Source: Chloroflexota bacterium (GTDB lineage: Bacteria; Chloroflexota; Dormibacteria; Dormibacterales; Dormibacteraceae). Taken from it: DNA of 8,906 nucleotides. Location: NCBI GenBank assembly GCA_005880175.1, contig VBJR01000262.1, positions 14,314-23,219 on the forward strand, in the 5' to 3' direction. How positions within the stretch are numbered: position 1 is the first letter of the stretch; every line of letters starts with the position of its first letter. The position numbers were made by a program, and so were the translations under genes. Positions 1 through 8,906 of this stretch are shown piece by piece. The notes under the pieces were generated by a model. It ran no database searches and was not told the DNA's origin. It was given only the letters and a program-made list of their open reading frames with translations.

Positions 1-1015
1 CCCTCGCATCCCGCCCTGCCGGCGGCCGGCAGCCGCAGCTCTCCCGCAGGACGAGCTCCGTCTCCAGCGTCGCCGCTTCCCCGGTCTCCTCCTCGCCGTC
101 GATCGCCGCCTGCAGCAGCTCGGCGGCCCGGGCGCCGAGCTCCAGCAGCGGCTGCCGCACCGTCGTCAGCGGCGGCAACAGGTAGCGCGCGACCGGGACG
201 TCGTCCCAGCCGGTGATCGCCACCTCGTCCGGGACGGCCAGCCCGATCGCCTCCGCCGCCGCGTACGCCCCCATCGCGATCTCGTCGTTCGCGCAGAACA
301 GCGCGGTGGGCGGCGTCCGCCGGCGCAGCACCAGCGCCGCCACCCGCTCGCCGTCCGCCTCCCGGAACCCGCACGCGTCGGCCGACCGCGGCGGGCGGAT
401 CCCGGCCTCGTGGAGGGCCTCCTGGAAGCCGGCCCAGCGCTCCGCGGCGTCCGGCGAGGACCCCGGATCGCCCAGGAACGCGATCCGGCGGTGGCCGTGC
501 CCGACCAGGTGGGCGGCCAGCGCCCGGGCGGCGTCCCGGTTCTCGGCGCGGACGGTGCGGGCCGCCGCCACCTGCGGCCGGGCCAGCAGCACGATCGGCA
601 TGGCCGCCGCCAGCTCCTCGGCGAGCACGTCGGACGCCGTCCGGCCGAACAGGACCAGGCCGTCCACCCGGCTGGCCAGGTCGCTGACCAGGTCGTCGGC
701 GTCCGGCCTGCCGTGCGTCCCGGCGATCAGGACGCTCTGGCCGAGCGCCTGGGCGGCCTCCTCCAGGCCCATGATCACGCCCGCGTAGTACGGGCCCGAC
801 AGGTTGGGGAACACGACCCCGATCGCCCCGTGGCGGCGGGTCGCGAGCGCCCGGGCGGCGCCGTTCAGCCGGTAGCCGACGGCGCGTGCCGACGCGAGCA
901 CGCGCTGCGCGGTCCGCTCGCGGACCGGAGCCCCTCCGCCCAGCACCCGCGAGACGGTCGCGATGGAGACGCCCGCGTGGCTGGCGACCGTGTAGATCGT
1001 CGGCCGCACCGACAT
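1..1015 (-). CDS. LacI-family transcriptional regulator (3' end beyond window edge)
   Basis: This is a DNA-binding transcriptional repressor of the LacI/GalR family, which normally senses a sugar or related small molecule. Residues 7-27 form the classic N-terminal helix-turn-helix (TVASHAGVSIATVSRVLGG). A hinge segment follows around residues 48-58 (YRLNGAARALA). From about residue 63 comes the periplasmic-binding-protein-like effector domain, with family motifs FCANDEIAMGAY, ITGWDDVPVARY and LTTVRQP. The C-terminal LVLRESCGC is near the usual family end, so after 338 full codons little should be missing, but no stop is seen before base 1. The start is ATG at 1013-1015. An ATG 4 nt upstream is in another frame, and no strong Shine-Dalgarno is visible. 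A 14-bp palindrome lies 25 bases upstream of the start. The ligand and regulon cannot be read from the sequence; the only neighbours seen upstream are unrelated to sugar use, and any controlled genes may lie left of the window. Confidence 0.93.
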   Translation of the reverse strand, partial: MSVRPTIYTVASHAGVSIATVSRVLGGGAPVRERTAQRVLASARAVGYRLNGAARALATRRHGAIGVVFPNLSGPYYAGVIMGLEEAAQALGQSVLIAGTHGRPDADDLVSDLASRVDGLVLFGRTASDVLAEELAAAMPIVLLARPQVAAARTVRAENRDAARALAAHLVGHGHRRIAFLGDPGSSPDAAERWAGFQEALHEAGIRPPRSADACGFREADGERVAALVLRRRTPPTALFCANDEIAMGAYAAAEAIGLAVPDEVAITGWDDVPVARYLLPPLTTVRQPLLELGARAAELLQAAIDGEEETGEAATLETELVLRESCGCRPPAGRDAR

Positions 1016-1380: not shown

Positions 1381-2361
1381 TCAGCCGTCGTACAGCGGGT
1401 TGTGCACGGTGACCTCGGCCCGGTACCGGCCGCCGACCCGGGTGAACGCCACCCAGGCCGCGCCCGACACCGTGCACGAGACCGTCAGGCGCTGGCCGTG
1501 TCCGGCCGGCCCGATCGGCGCCGTGCAGCGGCCCAGGTCGCCGCCGTCCTCGCGGACCAGGTGGACCTCGGCGCTCGCCGGCCCCACCTGCGGCCCCCGC
1601 TGGTTGACCACCGCCACCGAGATCGTGCAGGTGGACCCGGTGTCGCAGTCGCCGGCGTGCTTCAGCGACGCCTCGTCCACCACGTACTGGGCCGGCAGCG
1701 TCGTCGGGTCGTCGGTGCTGACCAGCGGGCTGGGCACCTGCACGGTCAGCGCGGCGGGGAAGTCCAGGTCCACGTTCACGTCCGTGATCCCGTCGGCCGT
1801 CCGGTAGCTCGGGCTCGACACCATGCGCAGGAACCGCCGCGGCGCGGTGGTGCTGACGTACAGGTCGCCATACCGGTCGCTCAGCACGGTGGCCGGCACG
1901 CCGCCGACGCGCGCCGACCGGCTCACGCGGTCGAACGTCGAGCCGGGCCGGGCCACGTCCAGCAGCGCCAGCGCGCGGCTCAGGGACGGGGTCGTGAGGT
2001 CGGTGAGCTCGTCCGTGCTCGTGACCCACTTGCCGCCGAGGAACGGCGCCAGCCTGCCCTGGCCGGCCCAGTAGTCCTGGCCGGCGAGCGCGTAGGCGCG
2101 GCTGCCCACGTACCGGTACTCCACCCGCCTGCCGTCGCTGACGACGGTGCCCTGGCTGTCGCCGTCCCGGTCGATCGTGACGTCCAGCTGGAACACGTGG
2201 CCGTCACGGCTGAACGCGCCCTTGACATGGACCGCTGGCGCCTTCCCGTAGTTGTCCAGCGCGCCCATGAGGGCCTGCCGGGCCACGGGCTGGCGCAGGT
2301 CCAGCGGTCCCATCCCGTTCAGGCCCAGGGCGACGAGCAGCGCCAGCGCCAGGCCCGCCAC
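1381..2361 (-). CDS. Predicted extracytoplasmic LppX/LprG-like protein with C-terminal four-Cys domain
   Basis: I do not recognise a named gene for this 326-residue protein. Residues 1-18 are hydrophobic (AGLALALLVALGL) and look like a signal peptide or anchor, though without the usual basic N-terminus or a lipobox Cys. Residues about 25-210 are rich in alternating beta patterns (APAVHVKGAFSRDG, VFQLDVTIDRDG, GRRVEYRYVGSRAYAL), resembling the LppX/LprG or lipoprotein-sorting fold by pattern only. Residues about 235-326 form a second beta-sandwich-like region with four cysteines (C239, C245, C279, C296) that could make two disulfides, which supports export. The start GTG at 2359-2361 lies 3 nt after the nuoN stop and in the same frame, so it is probably translated by coupling to nuoN. 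The next in-frame ATG (residue 17) would remove the hydrophobic segment. Co-transcription with complex I genes is likely; a functional link to respiration is not shown. Confidence 0.8.
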   Translation of the reverse strand: MAGLALALLVALGLNGMGPLDLRQPVARQALMGALDNYGKAPAVHVKGAFSRDGHVFQLDVTIDRDGDSQGTVVSDGRRVEYRYVGSRAYALAGQDYWAGQGRLAPFLGGKWVTSTDELTDLTTPSLSRALALLDVARPGSTFDRVSRSARVGGVPATVLSDRYGDLYVSTTAPRRFLRMVSSPSYRTADGITDVNVDLDFPAALTVQVPSPLVSTDDPTTLPAQYVVDEASLKHAGDCDTGSTCTISVAVVNQRGPQVGPASAEVHLVREDGGDLGRCTAPIGPAGHGQRLTVSCTVSGAAWVAFTRVGGRYRAEVTVHNPLYDG

Positions 2362-2364
2362 GGG

Positions 2365-3867
2365 TCAGTGGCCGGCGAGCGGTCCGGCGCCGAGCATGCC
2401 GGCGGCCTGGACGACCGACGGGAAGATGCCCAGGACCACGGCCAGCACGGCGGACACCGTGACGGCGACCAGCGGGCCGGGCGTCCGGTCCAGCTCGCGC
2501 GCCTCTGTCGTCGGCGTGAACACATGGATCACGACGCGCAGGTAGTACGCGACCGACACCACGCTGGTCAGCACGCCGATGACCACCAGCCACGTCCACC
2601 CGGTGGACACGCCGGCCGTGAACAGGAACAGCTTGCCGAAGAAGCCCACCAGCGGCGGGAAGCCGGCCAGCGAGAGCATGAACACGGTCATCAGCAGGCC
2701 CAGCCAGGGGTTTCGCTCCCAGAGCCCGTCCAGGTCCTCGAGCCGGTCGCGCTCGCCGGCCGGCGTCACCAGGACGGTCAGGACCGCGAACGCGCCGAAG
2801 TTCATGAACAGGTACGCGAACAGGTAGAACAGCACGGCGCCGATACCCGCGCTGCCCCCGGCCAGCACGCCGATCAGCATGTAGCCGCCCTGGGCGATGC
2901 CGGAGTAGGCGAGGAGGCGTTTGACGCTGGTCTGCGCGATCGCCAGCACGTTGCCGAGGACCATGCTGGCCGCCGCCACGAACGCGAGCAATACCTGCCA
3001 CTCCAGGCCGACGCTGGGCAGCGCGAAGTCGAAGACGCGCAGGATCATCGCGAAGGCGGCGGCCTTGGTGCCGACCGACATGAACGCGGTCACCGGCAGC
3101 GGCGCGCCCTGGTACACGTCGGGCGTCCACTGGTGGAACGGGACGCCGGAGATCTTGAACGCGAAGCCCGCGCCCAGCAGCAGCACGCCGAGCAGCAGCA
3201 GCGGGTTGGACGCCTGTTCGGGCCCGATCCGCTTCGCGATCTCGGACAGCAGCGTCGTGCCGGAGGCGCCGTAGACCAGCGCCATCCCGTACAGCACGAA
3301 CGCGCTTGCGAAGCCGCCGATCAGCAGGTACTTGGCGGCGGCCTCCTGCGAGGAGGTGTCGCGGCGGGCGAAGCCGCACGCCACGTAGAGCGCGATCGAG
3401 AGCAGCTCCAGGCCGAGGAACACGGTGACCAGGGACGTGGCCGCCCCGAGCACCATCATCCCGACCACCGCCGCCAGCACCAGCACCAGGAACTCGGACT
3501 CCAGGAAGTCGCGCCGGCGCACGTACGCGTGCGAGACGATCACGGTCAGGATGCCGAGGACGCTGAACAGCATCTCGAAGTAGAGGGCGAACTTGTCGCC
3601 GGTCGCGAAGCCGAAGTACGCGGTGTGCCCGCCGCCCTGCGACCACTCGAGGCCGGCGAGGGCGAGGGCGACCAGCAGGCCGGCGACCGAGATCACGGCC
3701 ACCGCGTCGCCCCGGCGGCGGGCGGGGAGGACCAGGTCCACGATCATCGCCACGAGCAGGGTCGCCGTGACGGCGGTGATCGGCGCGACCTGCGCGAGGT
3801 CGCTGCCCGCCTGTTCGAACGAGTAATTGACGGCAGGGCTGACGGCTAGCAGCAAGGTGTCGATCAT
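2365..3867 (-). CDS. nuoN: NADH-quinone oxidoreductase subunit N
   Basis: NuoN is one of three antiporter-like membrane subunits of complex I that move protons, driven by quinone reduction at the NuoH end; it sits closest to NuoK/NuoJ. The 500-residue length and roughly 14 hydrophobic helices fit the family. The channel residues are present: Glu154 in TM5 (LGLELLSIALY), Lys238 in TM7 (FKISGVPFHQWTPD), Lys268 in TM8 (SVGTKAAAF) and Lys412 in TM12 (GFFGKLFLF). The motif HQWTPDVYQGAP is typical of NuoN and separates it from NuoL and NuoM. The ATG at 3865-3867 overlaps the nuoM stop by four bases (ATGA), implying translational coupling. It ends at TGA 2365-2367, and the next gene starts 3 nt later in the same frame. 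No defect is seen. Confidence 0.97.
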   Translation of the reverse strand: MIDTLLLAVSPAVNYSFEQAGSDLAQVAPITAVTATLLVAMIVDLVLPARRRGDAVAVISVAGLLVALALAGLEWSQGGGHTAYFGFATGDKFALYFEMLFSVLGILTVIVSHAYVRRRDFLESEFLVLVLAAVVGMMVLGAATSLVTVFLGLELLSIALYVACGFARRDTSSQEAAAKYLLIGGFASAFVLYGMALVYGASGTTLLSEIAKRIGPEQASNPLLLLGVLLLGAGFAFKISGVPFHQWTPDVYQGAPLPVTAFMSVGTKAAAFAMILRVFDFALPSVGLEWQVLLAFVAAASMVLGNVLAIAQTSVKRLLAYSGIAQGGYMLIGVLAGGSAGIGAVLFYLFAYLFMNFGAFAVLTVLVTPAGERDRLEDLDGLWERNPWLGLLMTVFMLSLAGFPPLVGFFGKLFLFTAGVSTGWTWLVVIGVLTSVVSVAYYLRVVIHVFTPTTEARELDRTPGPLVAVTVSAVLAVVLGIFPSVVQAAGMLGAGPLAGH

Positions 3868-5390
3868 CTCCAGGGCACCGGGAGCGGGAACCCGAGCGAG
3901 GTCATGGCCTGCGTGAGCAGGTAAGGATAGAGGCCGAGCAGGGCCATCAGCAGGAGCAGCGGCACCAGCAGCCCCAGCTCCGCCGGGAAGACGTCGCTGC
4001 GGGCGACCGCCGCGCCCTCCCCGGACGGGTGCGCCGTGCCGTGGTGGCCGTGGTCGCCGCCCGGCGGCCCGGGCAGCTGCTCACCGGGGGCCGCGTACAT
4101 CAGGCCCTGGTACAGCCGGAGCATGTAGACCGGGGCCATCACCATGCCCAGGGTGCTCACGATCGCCAGCCAGGGCTGGAACTGCCAGGCCCCCAGCAGC
4201 GTCATGAACTCGCCGACGAAGCTGTTCAGCATCGGCAGCCCGAGGGCGGCCAGCGTGACCACCATGAAGACGCCGGCCAGGACCGGCATCCGCGGCGCCA
4301 GGTCCTTGATCGCCGAGCGGTCGTACGTCCCGGTCCGGGCGGCGATCCAGCCGATCAGCAGGAACAGCGCGGCCATGATGATCCCGTGGTTGACCATCTG
4401 CAGCACGGCGCCCTGCTGGCCCTGCTGGTTGAAGGCGAAGATGCCGAGCACGATGAAGCCCATGTGGCTGACGCTGGAGTACGCGATCAGCAGCTTCATG
4501 TCCCGCTGCGCGAGCGCCATCAGGGCGCCCCAGACGATGCCGGCGACGGCCAGCCAGGGCACCACGCCGTTCCAGTCCCACCACAGCGTGGGGTGGGGCA
4601 GCAGGGGGATGAGGATGCGCAGCATCGCGTACGCGCCCGTCTTGCCCATCACCCCGGCGAACGTGACCAGCATCGGGATCGGGGCGGCCCCGTACGCGTC
4701 GGGCAGCCAGCCGTGGAACGGGAACAGCGGGATCTTGATCGCGAACGCGAGCGCGAACAGGAAGAACAGCCCGAACTGGATGGCCTCCGTGGGCGGCTGC
4801 TTGGCCAGCGTGGCCAGGTCGAACGTGTGGACGCCGCCGCCGGCGTAGACGTACTCGCCGATGACGCCGACCAGGGCCAGCAGCGAGCCGGCCAGCGTGT
4901 AGAGGACGAACTTCAGCGCGGCGCCCCTGGCCTTGCCGCCCTCCCCCCACTGCCAGAGCAGGAAGTAGGCGGGGATCAGCTGCGCCTCCCAGAAGACGTA
5001 GAACAGCAGCAGGTCCGCGGCCAGGAACACCCCGGCCATGCCGCCCTCCAGCAGCAGGAGCAGCGCGATGAAGCCGCGCTGGCGGACGATGCGGTCGCCC
5101 GTGGCGACGATCGCGACGACCGTCAGGAAGGCGTTCAGCAGGACCAGCCAGAGGCTGATGCCGTCGAGGCCCAGGTGGTACGAGATGGAGTAGCTGCTGA
5201 CCCAGGGCACGTACTCCTCGAACTGGTACCCCTGGTGCCCGGGCTGGAACATGACGGCGGCCACCAGCGCGATCACGAGCGCGGCCAGCGCGGCGGCGAG
5301 GCCGACCGGACGGACGAGGCGGCGCGGCAGCCAGGGCAGGCCGACGACGGCGGCGCCGGCGACGGGGACGAGCCACAGTGCGGTCAGCAT
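3864..5390 (-). CDS. nuoM: NADH-quinone oxidoreductase subunit M
   Basis: NuoM is the middle antiporter-like proton-pumping subunit of complex I. The protein is 508 residues with about 14 hydrophobic helices. Glu135 (YVFWEAQLIPAYF) is the TM5 channel glutamate, Lys219 (FAIKIPLFPFHGWLPDAY) the TM7 lysine, Lys250 (GVMGKTGAYAMLRI) the TM8 lysine, and Glu394 (NSFVGEFMTLLG) the TM12 glutamate. All the expected ionisable residues are therefore kept. The loop at residues 440-460 is hydrophilic and His-rich (GGDHGHHGTAH), a small embellishment between the last helices. The ATG at 5388-5390 overlaps the nuoL TGA by one base (TGATG). A GAGGG motif about 10 nt upstream (near 5401-5405) could serve as ribosome binding site. 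The frame stays open further upstream inside nuoL, but that part has no NuoM homology. Confidence 0.97.
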   Translation of the reverse strand: MLTALWLVPVAGAAVVGLPWLPRRLVRPVGLAAALAALVIALVAAVMFQPGHQGYQFEEYVPWVSSYSISYHLGLDGISLWLVLLNAFLTVVAIVATGDRIVRQRGFIALLLLLEGGMAGVFLAADLLLFYVFWEAQLIPAYFLLWQWGEGGKARGAALKFVLYTLAGSLLALVGVIGEYVYAGGGVHTFDLATLAKQPPTEAIQFGLFFLFALAFAIKIPLFPFHGWLPDAYGAAPIPMLVTFAGVMGKTGAYAMLRILIPLLPHPTLWWDWNGVVPWLAVAGIVWGALMALAQRDMKLLIAYSSVSHMGFIVLGIFAFNQQGQQGAVLQMVNHGIIMAALFLLIGWIAARTGTYDRSAIKDLAPRMPVLAGVFMVVTLAALGLPMLNSFVGEFMTLLGAWQFQPWLAIVSTLGMVMAPVYMLRLYQGLMYAAPGEQLPGPPGGDHGHHGTAHPSGEGAAVARSDVFPAELGLLVPLLLLMALLGLYPYLLTQAMTSLGFPLPVPWR

Positions 5391-7300
5391 CAGCTCGTCG
5401 CCCTCACGAGCAGGATCAGGATCAGCGCGATCGCCGCCCCGCCCACGAACACGAGGATGTACGTCCGGAAGAAGCCGCTCTGGGTCAATGCCAGCGTGCC
5501 GGCGCCGGCCCGCGTGGCGGCGCCGATGTCCGTCGGCAGGCCGTCCAGCACCGGCTCCTCCAGCACCTTGTCGCCGGCGTTGGCAATGCCGTCCATCGTG
5601 CGCACGAACAGCGCGTCGTACAGCTCGTCCACGTAGTACTTGCGTTCGAGCAGGCGTTGCAGCCACGGCACCGCCGCGGACCACGGCCGCCAGGCGTGGC
5701 TGATGTAGAAGTTGTACGCGGCCAGGAACGCGACGCCGCCCAGGAGCAGCGTGGCGGCGGTCGGGATCCATTCCAGGCTTCGCGGCGTCCAGGGCAGCAC
5801 GCCCACCACCGGAGCCAGGAATTCCTCGACCTTCCTCCAGCCGACGTCGAACCCGGCGTTGAGCTGCAGCCCGCCGCCGACCACGGTCAGGACCGTGAGC
5901 ACGATGACCGGCACCATCATCACGGGCGGCGCCTCGTGCGGCTGCGCGACCGGCCGGTCGGGCGCGGCCTCGCGCCAGAACGCCATCCACCACATGCGGC
6001 CCGTGTAGAACCCGGTCAGGATCGCCGTCAGGAACCCGACCGCCCACATCACCTGCGGGAAGCCGCCCTGGTCCGGCTTGCTGAACGCGTCGCCGAGGAT
6101 GACCTCCTTGGAGAAGAAGCCGACCAGCGGGAAGATGCCGACCAGGGCCAGCGAGCCGATCAGGAAGCAGATCGACGTCAGGCGCATGTCCTTCCACAGG
6201 CCGCCGAACTTGCGCATGTCCTGCTCGTCGCGCATCGAGTGGATCACGTTCCCGGCGCCCATGAAGAGGAGGGCCTTGAAGAACGCGTGGGCGAGCAGGT
6301 GGTAGAACCCGGCGGCGTACGCGCCCAGGCCGACGCCGAGGAACATGTAGCCGATCTGGCTCATCGTGGAGTACGCGAGCACCCGCTTGATGTCGGTCTG
6401 CACGATGCCGATCGTCGCGGCGACCAGCGCGGTGACCGCGCCAAGCAGCGCGGCCGTGCTGTGCGACCAGAAGGCCACGTCATAGATCGGGTGCATGCGG
6501 CCGATCAGGTACACGCCGGCCGTCACCATCGTGGCCGCGTGGATCAGCGCCGACACCGGCGTGGGGCCCTCCATGGCGTCGGGCAGCCACGTGTGCAGTG
6601 GCAGCTGCGCGGACTTGGCGACCGCCCCGACCAGGAGCAGGAACCCGATCACCTCGATCCAGAAGCCGTCCGCCCTGGGCAGGGCCCCGAACACGCCGGC
6701 GAACGTGGTCTGCCGGTACTGGACGAAGATCGCGAACGTGGCCAGGATCAGGCCGATGTCGCCGATCACGTTCATCACGAACGCCTTGCGGGCGGCCGCG
6801 ACGGCGCTGTACCGCCAGTAGTAGAAGCCGATCAGCAGGTACGAGCTGAGGCCGACCATCGCCCAGCCCATGATCAGGAACACGAAGTTGCCCGCCAGGA
6901 CCAGCAGCAGCATCGAGAAGATGAACAGGTCCATGTAGCAGAAGAAGCGGGCGTAGCTGGCGTCGCCCTCGTGGTCCATGTAGCCGACCGCGTACGTGAC
7001 GATCAGGCCGCCCACGCCGGTCACGACCAGGCACATGAAGATCGACAGCCGGTCCACGAGCAGGTTCGCGGGCAGGCTGAACGCGCCGCTCTTGATCCAC
7101 GTCCAGTACGTGTAGTCGTGGGCCGTGCTGTTCTGGAGCGAGTCCACGAGCAGGATCACCGTGTAGACGAACCCGAGCCAGACCACGCCCGGCCCGATCA
7201 GCCGGATGGCCGTGCGGGGGATGGTCAGCGCGGTCAGCGCGAGGACGAGGGCGCCGGCGGCGGGCAGCAGGAGCAGGGCGAGAGCGAGCGTTTGCAGCAT
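5390..7300 (-). CDS. nuoL: NADH-quinone oxidoreductase subunit L (TM5 glutamate replaced by Ala)
   Basis: NuoL is the distal antiporter-like subunit of complex I, carrying the long lateral amphipathic helix that spans NuoM and NuoN. The 636-residue length fits the family. The core motif KSAQLPLHTWLPDAMEGPTP is present with Lys229, then His254 (SALIHAATMV), Lys342 (HAFFKALLFMGAG) and Lys398 (GFFSKEVIL). Residues about 535-612 contain the amphipathic region (YYVDELYDALFV to LTQSGFFRTY), and TM16 follows at the end. The oddity is TM5: the segment reads MGWAMVGLSSYLLIGFYY, where the family has GWE.VG; Ala147 (codon GCG, 6860-6862) sits at the place of E. coli Glu144, and no other acidic residue lies in that helix. 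The ATG at 7298-7300 begins 5 nt after nuoK, with a modest GAAGGG 9 nt upstream. Otherwise the gene looks intact. Confidence 0.97.
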   Translation of the reverse strand: MLQTLALALLLLPAAGALVLALTALTIPRTAIRLIGPGVVWLGFVYTVILLVDSLQNSTAHDYTYWTWIKSGAFSLPANLLVDRLSIFMCLVVTGVGGLIVTYAVGYMDHEGDASYARFFCYMDLFIFSMLLLVLAGNFVFLIMGWAMVGLSSYLLIGFYYWRYSAVAAARKAFVMNVIGDIGLILATFAIFVQYRQTTFAGVFGALPRADGFWIEVIGFLLLVGAVAKSAQLPLHTWLPDAMEGPTPVSALIHAATMVTAGVYLIGRMHPIYDVAFWSHSTAALLGAVTALVAATIGIVQTDIKRVLAYSTMSQIGYMFLGVGLGAYAAGFYHLLAHAFFKALLFMGAGNVIHSMRDEQDMRKFGGLWKDMRLTSICFLIGSLALVGIFPLVGFFSKEVILGDAFSKPDQGGFPQVMWAVGFLTAILTGFYTGRMWWMAFWREAAPDRPVAQPHEAPPVMMVPVIVLTVLTVVGGGLQLNAGFDVGWRKVEEFLAPVVGVLPWTPRSLEWIPTAATLLLGGVAFLAAYNFYISHAWRPWSAAVPWLQRLLERKYYVDELYDALFVRTMDGIANAGDKVLEEPVLDGLPTDIGAATRAGAGTLALTQSGFFRTYILVFVGGAAIALILILLVRATS

Positions 7301-7305
7301 CGCGA

Positions 7306-7644
7306 TCAGCCCTTCAGCTCGCTGAGCTCGTCCACGTCCTCGACGTCGCGGACGCGGAAGATGTCCACCAGGATGGCCAGGCCGACTACCGCCTCGGCAG
7401 CCGCGACCGTCATGGTCATCAGGGCGAAGAGCTGGCCTTCCAGGTTGTGCAGCTGCGCGGCGAACGTGATCAGCGTGAGGTTGGCCGCGTTGAGCATCAG
7501 CTCGATGCAGACCAGGATCACGATCGGGTTGCGCCGGACCAGCACGCCGAGCGCGCCGAGCAGGAACAGGATGAAGGCGAGGCCGAGGACGAGCCGCGCA
7601 TCCAGGGTGCCGGCGCCGACCTGGATCTGACCGTAGTCAGGCAA
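7306..7644 (-). CDS. nuoK: NADH-quinone oxidoreductase subunit K
   Basis: NuoK is a small three-helix membrane subunit of complex I (ND4L homologue), part of the proton path linking NuoH/NuoJ to NuoN. At 112 residues it is slightly longer than the common 100. Glu48 (VCIELMLNAANL, second helix) and Glu84 (TVAAAEAVVGLAI, third helix) have the same 36-residue spacing as E. coli Glu36 and Glu72. The extra length is an N-terminal stretch of about 12 residues ([12 protein letters not shown]). The start is TTG at 7642-7644; no ATG or GTG fits near the homologous start, and a perfect AGGAGG lies 6 nt upstream, so TTG is well supported. The gene overlaps the end of nuoJ by 8 nt. The charged C-terminal tail (VRDVEDVDELSELKG) is cytosolic or peripheral by inference. 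Confidence 0.96.
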   Translation of the reverse strand: MPDYGQIQVGAGTLDARLVLGLAFILFLLGALGVLVRRNPIVILVCIELMLNAANLTLITFAAQLHNLEGQLFALMTMTVAAAEAVVGLAILVDIFRVRDVEDVDELSELKG

Positions 7645-8161
7645 CGTTGTCCTCCTCTGCGTGTGCTTCTTCTTGCCGGCGGACCTCGCTCGCCGTCCGC
7701 CCGCCGCGGCTCAGGTAGATGGCGCCCACGGCCGCCACCAGGAGGAGGATGGAGGTCAGCTCGAACGGATACAGGTAGGTCGTGAAGAGGCCGGTCCCGA
7801 TCTGCTCGACGGTGCCGAAGAACGTCATGTCGAGCTTGTCGGGGGCGACGCCGAAGAACGACAGGCCGACCAGCAGCGAGAAAGCCCAGTGAAGGCGCAG
7901 CCGCCTGCTGACTCGCTCGCGTCCCGGTCCGAGCAGGGCGACAACGAACAGGAAGAGGACCATGACCGCGCCCGCGTAGACGATCACCTGGACCGCGAAC
8001 ACGAACTGGGCCGAGAGCAGCAGGAAGATGACGGACAGCGCGAGCATCACCGCCACCAGGCTGAGGACGCTGCGCACCGGCTGGCGCGACGCGATCACGC
8101 CCAGGCCGCCGAGCACGGCGATCACGGCCATCACCCAGAACACGATCTGCGGGACGATCAC
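7637..8161 (-). CDS. nuoJ: NADH-quinone oxidoreductase subunit J
   Basis: NuoJ (ND6 homologue) is a membrane subunit of complex I that packs between NuoH and NuoK and takes part in coupling quinone chemistry to pumping. The 174-residue protein has about five hydrophobic helices. The family signature [22 protein letters not shown] (residues 58-78, given here without a break only for its first and last parts: [10 protein letters not shown] and LFVVALLG) includes Tyr62 and Gly64 of the third helix, where complex I structures show a pi-bulge. The GTG start at 8159-8161 overlaps the upstream TGA by four bases (GTGA), with AGGGG 7 nt upstream. The frame continues open further upstream inside the nuoI region, but that part has no NuoJ character. 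The C-terminus is strongly charged ([12 protein letters not shown]) and overlaps the nuoK start. Confidence 0.95.
7651..7656 (-). promoter_or_regulatory. Ribosome binding site of nuoK
   Basis: A perfect AGGAGG on the minus strand lies 6 nt upstream of the TTG at 7642-7644, inside the 3' end of nuoJ. It decides the otherwise uncertain TTG start of nuoK. Confidence 0.75.
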
Positions 8162-8906
8162 CGGTCGGCCCCTACGAACAGCGGCTCCTGCTGGTCGGGG
8201 TTCGGCTCCAGCAGCATGTCCTTCGTGTAGACGAAGCGCTCGCGGCTGACGTCGGCGAGCTCGTACTCCGGTCCCAGCACGATCGCCTGGACCGGGCACG
8301 CCTCCTCGCAGTAGCCGCAGAAGATGCAGCGGAGCATGTTGATCTCGTAGGTCTTCGCGTAGCGCTCCCCGGGCGAGACGCGATTCTCGTCGGTGTTCTC
8401 CGCAGCGATGACCAGGATGCAGCCGACCGGGCACGCCGCCGAACACAGCTCGCATCCGATGCAGCGTTCCAGGCCGTTGTCGTAGCGCCGCAGGTAGTGG
8501 CGCCCCCGGTAGCGCTCCGAGCGCGGCGTCTTCTCCTCCGGGTACATCGTGGTGACCACCGGCCGGAACGTTTCCGCCAGCGTGGTCTTCAGCCCGGTGA
8601 GCAGAGCAGCGACGTCGTCGACGACGCTCGGCTGCTTGGTCGGCGTGACCACCACGTTGGCCAGCGCCAGCGGCAGCAGGACCTTCCAGCCCAGCCGCAT
8701 CAGCTGGTCGTAGCGGAGCCGCGGCAGCGTGGTCCGGAGCCAGATGTACAGGAACAGGAAGAGGATCACCTTCACCAGGAAGGACACCCACGCGAACGGC
8801 CCGAAGGCCGGATGCCAGCCCGCGAAGAACAGCAGGGAGGCCAGCGCCGAGACCGTGATCATGTTCACGTACTCGCCCAGGTAGAAGCAGACGAACTTCA
8901 GGCCCG
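8158..8906 (-). CDS. nuoHI: NuoH-NuoI fusion protein of complex I (5' part beyond window edge)
   Basis: The frame is open from the window edge to TGA 8158-8160 (248 residues visible). Residues about 1-88 are the C-terminal end of NuoH, the quinone-site membrane subunit: [15 protein letters not shown], then [20 protein letters not shown] and [20 protein letters not shown]. With no stop, the frame continues through a hydrophilic linker ([15 protein letters not shown]) into NuoI, whose usual N-terminus is recognisable ([23 protein letters not shown]). NuoI supplies two [4Fe-4S] clusters: [12 protein letters not shown] (codons about 8431-8463) and [12 protein letters not shown] (about 8296-8328). 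No in-frame ATG lies between the NuoH helix and the NuoI region, and the nearest GTGs fall inside the NuoH helix or inside the NuoI N-terminus, so separate translation of NuoI looks unlikely. NuoH and NuoI are adjacent in all complex I structures, so a fusion is sterically sensible. A one-base assembly error hiding a boundary is the main alternative. Confidence 0.9.
8169..8173 (-). promoter_or_regulatory. Ribosome binding site of nuoJ
   Basis: AGGGG on the minus strand, within the last codons of the NuoI part, stands 7 nt upstream of the GTG at 8159-8161. It supports the four-base-overlap start of nuoJ over any start further upstream in the same open frame. Confidence 0.5.

Follow-up and report, generated by a model that had tools for sequence, protein, structure and literature searches.

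How redox energy crosses the ~200 Å of the complex I membrane arm is disputed. A 2026 cryo-EM study of E. coli complex I describes a 'double ion-pair' in NuoL, made of K229-D178 and E144-R175, with distances of 3.3 Å (K229-D178), 4.8 Å (K229-E144), 5.2 Å (D178-R175) and 2.9 Å (R175-E144) (PMC13324432). T. thermophilus Nqo12 has an equivalent double pair, Glu132/Arg163 and Asp166/Lys216 (PMC11496545), and in mouse ND5 D179 is bonded to E145 (PMC10396290). The Arg also reaches towards the neighboring subunit: R175 bridges halfway from NuoM E407 to NuoL E144 (PMC13324432), and in simulations Nqo12 Arg163 pairs with Nqo13 Glu377 across the subunit border (PMC5552823). NuoM and NuoN have one acid-Lys pair each, and the residues given for the NuoM proton-input path include E. 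coli His248 (PMC13324432). We equate this His, from its position in TM7b, with H220 of mouse ND4 (PMC10396290); the equation is ours.

Two schemes for the last step of coupling compete. In the 'domino' scheme a proton passes from NuoM TM12 to NuoL TM5, a transfer regarded as crucial, and all protons are expelled via NuoL (PMC10212512). In the other, ion pairs open in waves (PMC13324432; PMC11496545). So far E144 has been probed by mutants reported to be impaired or leaky. E144Q is reported to lower the activity of E. coli complex I severely (cited in PMC4938563, whose own B. subtilis test showed little effect), and E132Q makes isolated T. thermophilus Nqo12 conduct protons faster (PMC11496545). 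On these accounts the Glu-Arg pair is thus not idle in the systems described. Paracoccus mutants of Nqo13, the NuoM equivalent, move four protons per NADH even with lowered catalysis (PMC9802314).

The nuoL locus and the substituted site

On its minus strand the window (the whole stretch of DNA analysed, 8,906 nucleotides) carries the last part of a nuo operon in the order NuoH/I, J, K, L, M, N, an order that agrees with the assignment of nuoL. The nuoL gene (5390..7300, minus strand) encodes a NADH-quinone oxidoreductase subunit L of 636 aa, identified by its open reading frame, by family models and by predicted fold. It scores above the cut-offs of NF005141 (643.7 bits vs 556) and TIGR01974 (625.4 vs 407.5 bits) and far below that of TIGR00940, the model for MrpA, subunit A of monovalent cation:proton antiporters (252 vs 920.45 bits). 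An AlphaFold model of the product has a mean pLDDT of 90.6; its best solved match in Foldseek is 8e9g_L (TM 0.84), and TM scores by query length span 0.78-0.84 across the best 50 matches listed. The residues expected of NuoL in TM7 (Lys), TM8 (His), TM11 (His/Lys) and TM12 (Lys and an acid) are all present, as K229, H254, H338, K342, K398 and E399.

The TM5 Glu, a residue of the common mechanism that lies outside the curated definition of the NuoL family, is absent. Aligned to E. coli K-12 NuoL, the window protein has Ala147 (codon GCG, 6860..6862, minus strand) in place of Glu144 in TM5, and Val178 (GTG, 6767..6769, minus strand) in place of Arg175 in TM6, the lost partner of the Glu. The second pair of the double ion pair is therefore missing at both ends. 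The residues of the first pair are retained: Asp181 in TM6 (GAC, 6758..6760, minus strand) corresponds to Asp178, and Ala228-Lys229 (6614..6619, minus strand) corresponds to Gly228-Lys229, with the TM7 Lys kept and the Gly altered. H254 and K342 align with the E. coli residues of the same number.

A first-pass annotation of this DNA had reported Ala for the TM5 Glu at position 147, and the alignment bears this out, together with the register on which the report relied (K229, H254 and K342 numbered as in E. coli, D181 offset by three from D178). Misalignment at 147 is ruled out, since the flanking GW and VG and this register agree. The annotation was also right that TM5 (residues 139-160) contains no other acid and that the TM5 Glu persists in NuoM (Glu135 = E144) and NuoN (Glu154 = E133). 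Its account of the TM5 Glu as the partner of the TM7 Lys was incomplete, in that the published NuoL and Nqo12 arrangement is the double pair K229-D178 and E144-R175. Since the Asp and Lys of the first pair are kept in the clade rows examined, the TM7 Lys229 still has an acid.

By the curated models the window protein belongs to the NuoL family, and it has one ion pair fewer. In fold, in the charged residues of the axis, in the TM6 Asp and in the TM7 Lys it resembles E. coli NuoL, T. thermophilus Nqo12 and mammalian ND5; unlike these, it has no second Glu(TM5)-Arg(TM6) pair, and its Gly228 is altered as well. In the open-licence papers searched, neither this clade nor any NuoL lacking the TM5 Glu was found described.

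The partner subunits look conventional in most respects. NuoM (3864..5390, minus strand; 508 aa; TIGR01972, 483.7 bits) keeps its ion pair, Glu135/Lys219, and the TM12 Glu394, which match E144, K234 and E407 of E. coli NuoM. By alignment, its Tyr233 (4692..4694, minus strand) takes the place of E. coli His248, the proposed uptake His on the N side. NuoN (2365..3867, minus strand; 500 aa; TIGR01770, 419.3 bits) keeps Glu154, Lys238, Lys268 and Lys412. Upstream of nuoL lie nuoK (7306..7644, minus strand; NF004320, 107.3 bits, cut-off 57) and nuoJ (7637..8155 with an approximate start, minus strand; NF005165, E 3.5e-35, below the cut-off of that model).

Distribution and history of the substitutions

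The best 120 homologues listed are 64-96% identical to the window NuoL, and those named include Candidatus Dormibacteraeota and Candidatus Nephthysia. At column 147 they carry Ala in 114, Gly in five and Glu in one. With 119 of these 120 closest homologues also lacking Glu, a base error or private mutation at codon 147 is ruled out. D181, K229, H254, H338 and K342 are kept in 120/120. The one Glu row (P0085) is of the Glu type to about residue 240; beyond about residue 250 it is clade-like, with 74-100% identity to its best clade match in each 50-residue stretch. By this pattern it is a mosaic NuoL with a canonical N-terminal part.

The absence of Glu147 goes together with that of Arg178. In a column comparison of 143 NuoL rows (69 without Glu147, 72 with it and two gapped there), Arg178 is found in 0/69 rows without Glu vs 68/72 with Glu. 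In the Glu-less rows residue 178 is Val in 58, Thr in five, Ala in four and Ile in two. Residue 228, which precedes Lys229, is Gly in 68/72 rows with Glu, and Ala (67) or Thr (2) in the 69 without; residue 143 likewise shifts with Glu loss, from Phe/Tyr to Ile/Leu/Val/Met. Four rows have Glu without Arg. Two of them (L092 and L098) group with the clade, and two (L041 and L042) are other antiporter-like proteins that also lack Asp181.

Two protein searches seeded by two other clade members gave 240 further proteins among the matches listed. Their residue 147 is Glu in 64 and Ala, Gly or Asn in 176. Arg178 is present in 64/64 proteins with Glu vs 0/176 without it, and residue 228 is Gly in all 64 of the former and Ala in all 176 of the latter. 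Asp181 and Lys229, the residues of the first pair, occur in 240/240, as they do in all of the best 120. Glu-less proteins in this set are named from Dictyobacter vulcani, D. aurantiacus, D. kobayashii, Tengunoibacter tsumagoiensis and Ktedonosporobacter rubrisoli. Dictyobacter, Tengunoibacter and Ktedonosporobacter belong to the Ktedonobacteria, a class of the Chloroflexota. Across the clade, residue 147 is A, G or N, and residue 178 is V, I, T, A or S.

In a sample designated 'phylum' (201 genomes, 188 with a match at E<=1e-60), the 90 best loci read comprise 47 without Glu and 43 with it. The sets of 120, 143 and 240 proteins overlap in part, and since the rows behind these counts and the trees were the ones that best matched the window NuoL or two clade members, the share of Glu-less rows is no measure of the frequency of the trait. 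Outgroup samples centred on Cohnella, Blastocatellia and Gemmatimonadetes genomes (242 genomes searched) have Glu, Arg, Asp and Lys in all 86 loci read, which comprise only the best matches. To judge from these sequences, the Glu-less state marks a NuoL branch in the Chloroflexota that includes Dormibacteria and Dictyobacter, the phylum being taken from record names. Clade-type NuoL is also carried by one record titled Bacillota (L002) and one titled Proteobacteria (L004); the genome of the latter is in the same phylum sample as a Dormibacteraeota genome, so its title looks wrong.

NuoM changes along with NuoL at one site. The place of His248 is occupied by Tyr at all 46 loci that lack NuoL Arg178, among them the two that retain Glu, and by His at 60/62 loci with Arg178; the other two (L110 and L114) have Tyr alongside NuoL Glu and Arg. 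Similarly, Ala228 stands alongside Glu and Arg in 3/27 Cohnella-group loci. Because each is also found with Glu and Arg, neither Ala228 nor the NuoM Tyr is peculiar to loss of the pair. The remaining NuoM residues are stable: E144, K234 and K265 (E. coli numbering) are kept in 43/43 clade loci and E407 in 42/43, with one gap, which rules out a joint loss of the NuoM TM5 Glu or TM12 Glu. NuoN of the clade keeps its four key residues in 18/18 loci.

Two trees, both quick searches, indicate how the substitutions arose. A 138-row NuoL tree was built without the trait columns and with rows P0085, L003, L041, L042 and L043 excluded. It places the loss of Arg178 and the change of Gly228 at one step each and asks for three changes at Glu147; every one of the 69 Glu-less rows falls inside one 71-row branch (SH-aLRT 95), in which L092 and L098 are the only Glu rows. 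A mixture-model tree of 62 hand-picked rows, without L098, requires one change each for Arg and Gly228 and two for Glu. L092 is long-branched and lies at or near the base of the branch (sister to a five-row group with support of 80 in the larger tree, unresolved at the base of the clade in the smaller). It has Glu without Arg and a NuoM Tyr, as an order with Arg lost first would predict. L098, deep in the clade, also has Glu and no Arg, so Glu can occur there; its first ~150 residues are nearer to the Glu type, and it is possibly a mosaic by sequence. The mosaic appearance of P0085 and L098 (4459-6333, minus strand) may reflect recombination or chimeric assembly.

The simplest order is loss of Arg together with the NuoM and Gly228 changes, followed by loss of Glu and then by drift of residue 147 among Ala, Gly and Asn; Arg would thus probably have gone first and its departure would have released the Glu. 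The changes of Arg and Gly228 share one branch, so the tight association represents a single historical event, and no independent repeat of the joint Glu and Arg loss was shown among the loci examined. We infer that the association of Glu, Arg and Gly228 supports functional coupling without proving it.

Proposed gating by a single ion pair and its alternatives

The reading that we favor, with a probability of roughly 70%, is that the complex I of the clade is otherwise ordinary but its NuoL relies on the single TM6-Asp/TM7-Lys pair, the counterparts of E144 and R175 having been removed ancestrally as a charge-neutral unit. By a count of residues, the absence of both Glu and Arg leaves the net charge of the site unchanged. 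Nearly all of the charged axis of NuoL is kept in the clade: H254, K305, H338, K342, K398 and an acid at 399 are present in 69/69 Glu-less rows and H334 in 65/69, with Gln in the remaining four. With its channel residues and the NuoM and NuoN pairs retained, the clade NuoL looks to be under selection, and the clade complex I probably still pumps.

In such an enzyme the Asp181 (TM6)-Lys229 (TM7) pair alone would gate NuoL, much as NuoM and NuoN use one acid-Lys pair; their acid is the TM5 Glu, whereas that of the clade NuoL would be the TM6 Asp. Protonation of NuoM TM12 Glu394 (E407) would be passed on electrostatically via Asp181/Lys229, with neither a proton hop onto a TM5 Glu nor an R175 bridge. 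The Tyr233 of clade NuoM has a likeness elsewhere in the arm, as NuoN has a Tyr at that place (NuoN Y252 = E. coli Y231). That the whole branch works without a titratable NuoL TM5 residue, without the R175 bridge and with Tyr for the NuoM uptake His is a broader and tentative proposition, at somewhat under even odds.

The consequences would bear on the dispute over coupling. With the TM5 acceptor absent, the 'domino' step would have to use Asp181 or be electrostatic if the clade enzymes pump normally. Should they pump 4 H+ per NADH, the transfer to NuoL TM5 from NuoM TM12 that this scheme calls for would be dispensable, and one Asp-Lys pair could couple the last junction by electrostatics alone.

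An unlikely alternative, though the most serious one, is that without the pair the last pumping unit is uncoupled or silent, so that the clade NuoL pumps less or not at all and H+/2e- is lowered, perhaps as an adaptation to low energy yield. The mutants described above would fit it, since E132Q is reported to raise the proton conduction of isolated Nqo12 (PMC11496545) and the effect of E144Q on E. coli complex I is cited as severe (PMC4938563), and the clade has lost NuoM His248, a proposed uptake residue, as well. These mutants resemble the clade NuoL in lacking the TM5 carboxylate; they keep the Arg, however, whereas the clade lacks it too and has an altered NuoM. An idle channel would need none of the axis residues that the Glu-less rows retain along with D181 and K229. 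Lowered catalysis in the Paracoccus Nqo13 mutants, moreover, left four protons per NADH (PMC9802314), and no other NuoL was seen at E<=1e-60 in 9/10 Dormibacteria-type genomes.

Neutral drift is a good deal less probable. It would make the loss mechanistically meaningless, the Glu-Arg pair having had little function in this lineage, and the variability of residues 147 and 178 within the clade is what drift would produce. Against it stand the retention of the pair in all 86 best-matching loci read from three other groups, the severe effect of Glu loss reported for E. coli (cited in PMC4938563) and the changes next to Lys229 and in NuoM that accompany the loss. Least probable is that acids such as Asp124 or Glu216, at the beginning of TM4 and of TM7 respectively, have taken over the work of Glu147 in Dormibacteria. 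Both are present in the window NuoL; they occur in 37/69 and 32/69 Glu-less rows, with an acid at neither place in the 72 Glu rows. Only part of the clade has either of them, however, and the rows read from named Ktedonobacteria carry Asn124 and, for the most part, Thr216, which rules out a clade-wide replacement.

Single-pair gating by Asp181 and Lys229, the favored reading, predicts that a Glu and Arg double mutant performs better than a single Glu mutant. The clade consists of natural, maintained enzymes without the Glu-Arg pair, some named Ktedonobacteria carrying a canonical copy in addition; since it exists as a natural pair-less mutant, the role of the pair in pumping becomes directly testable.

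Additional NuoL copies and neighboring reading frames

In a relative, the Dormibacteraeota metagenome-assembled genome G001, family models place the Ala-type NuoL together with each of nuoA to nuoI and with nuoM; the test covered nuoA-I, L and M, and NuoA scored below its cut-offs. The ten genomes that hold the top matches in the phylum sample are of the Dormibacteria type. In nine of these ten, G001 among them, no second NuoL was found at E<=1e-60, the genomes being drafts of unstated completeness. G200, the tenth, carries a diverged copy as well as a fragment of another NuoL of the Ala type. A second, normal NuoL that covers for the Ala type was therefore not seen in nine of the ten Dormibacteria-type genomes; one is present in nine other clade genomes (G133, G031, G125, G093, G101, G205, G098, G138 and G162). 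Those nine, Dictyobacter among them, hold both types of NuoL, with and without the Glu-Arg pair. Their second copies (L133-L141) share a genome with a Glu-less NuoL but have Glu147, Arg178 and Gly228.

At one end of the operon segment, the C-terminus of nuoH lies in one frame with nuoI (8158..8904, minus strand), NuoH models matching residues 1-108 of the ORF and NuoI models residues 93-237. The frame lacks the last NuoH residues and the usual NuoI start. In a relative (L001) NuoH ends in a stop and NuoI is in a different frame; the joining in the window may be a real fusion or an assembly deletion. At the other end, nuoN is followed by an ORF of 326 aa (1381-2361, minus strand) with zero NCBIfam matches and by the ORF of a LacI-family regulator (2-1015, minus strand) that is cut by the window end.

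Six genomes (G112, G208, G176, G192, G026 and G200) have a second, strongly diverged NuoL-like copy (L142-L147), in which residue 147 is Gly, Leu or Ala and residue 178 is Ala, Leu or Gln. Because these copies belong to a different, degenerate-looking module, they were not counted as an independent loss of Glu and Arg. In the three stretches read (L142, L143 and L147), the translations suggest by eye that the copy is part of a run resembling NuoJ/K-L-M-N, with an ORF similar to penicillin-binding proteins nearby; L143 and L147 also appear to have a ferredoxin-NAD(P)H-reductase-like ORF next to the copy. The NuoM of L144 has Gln for E144, and the NuoL of L147 has Thr for K342.
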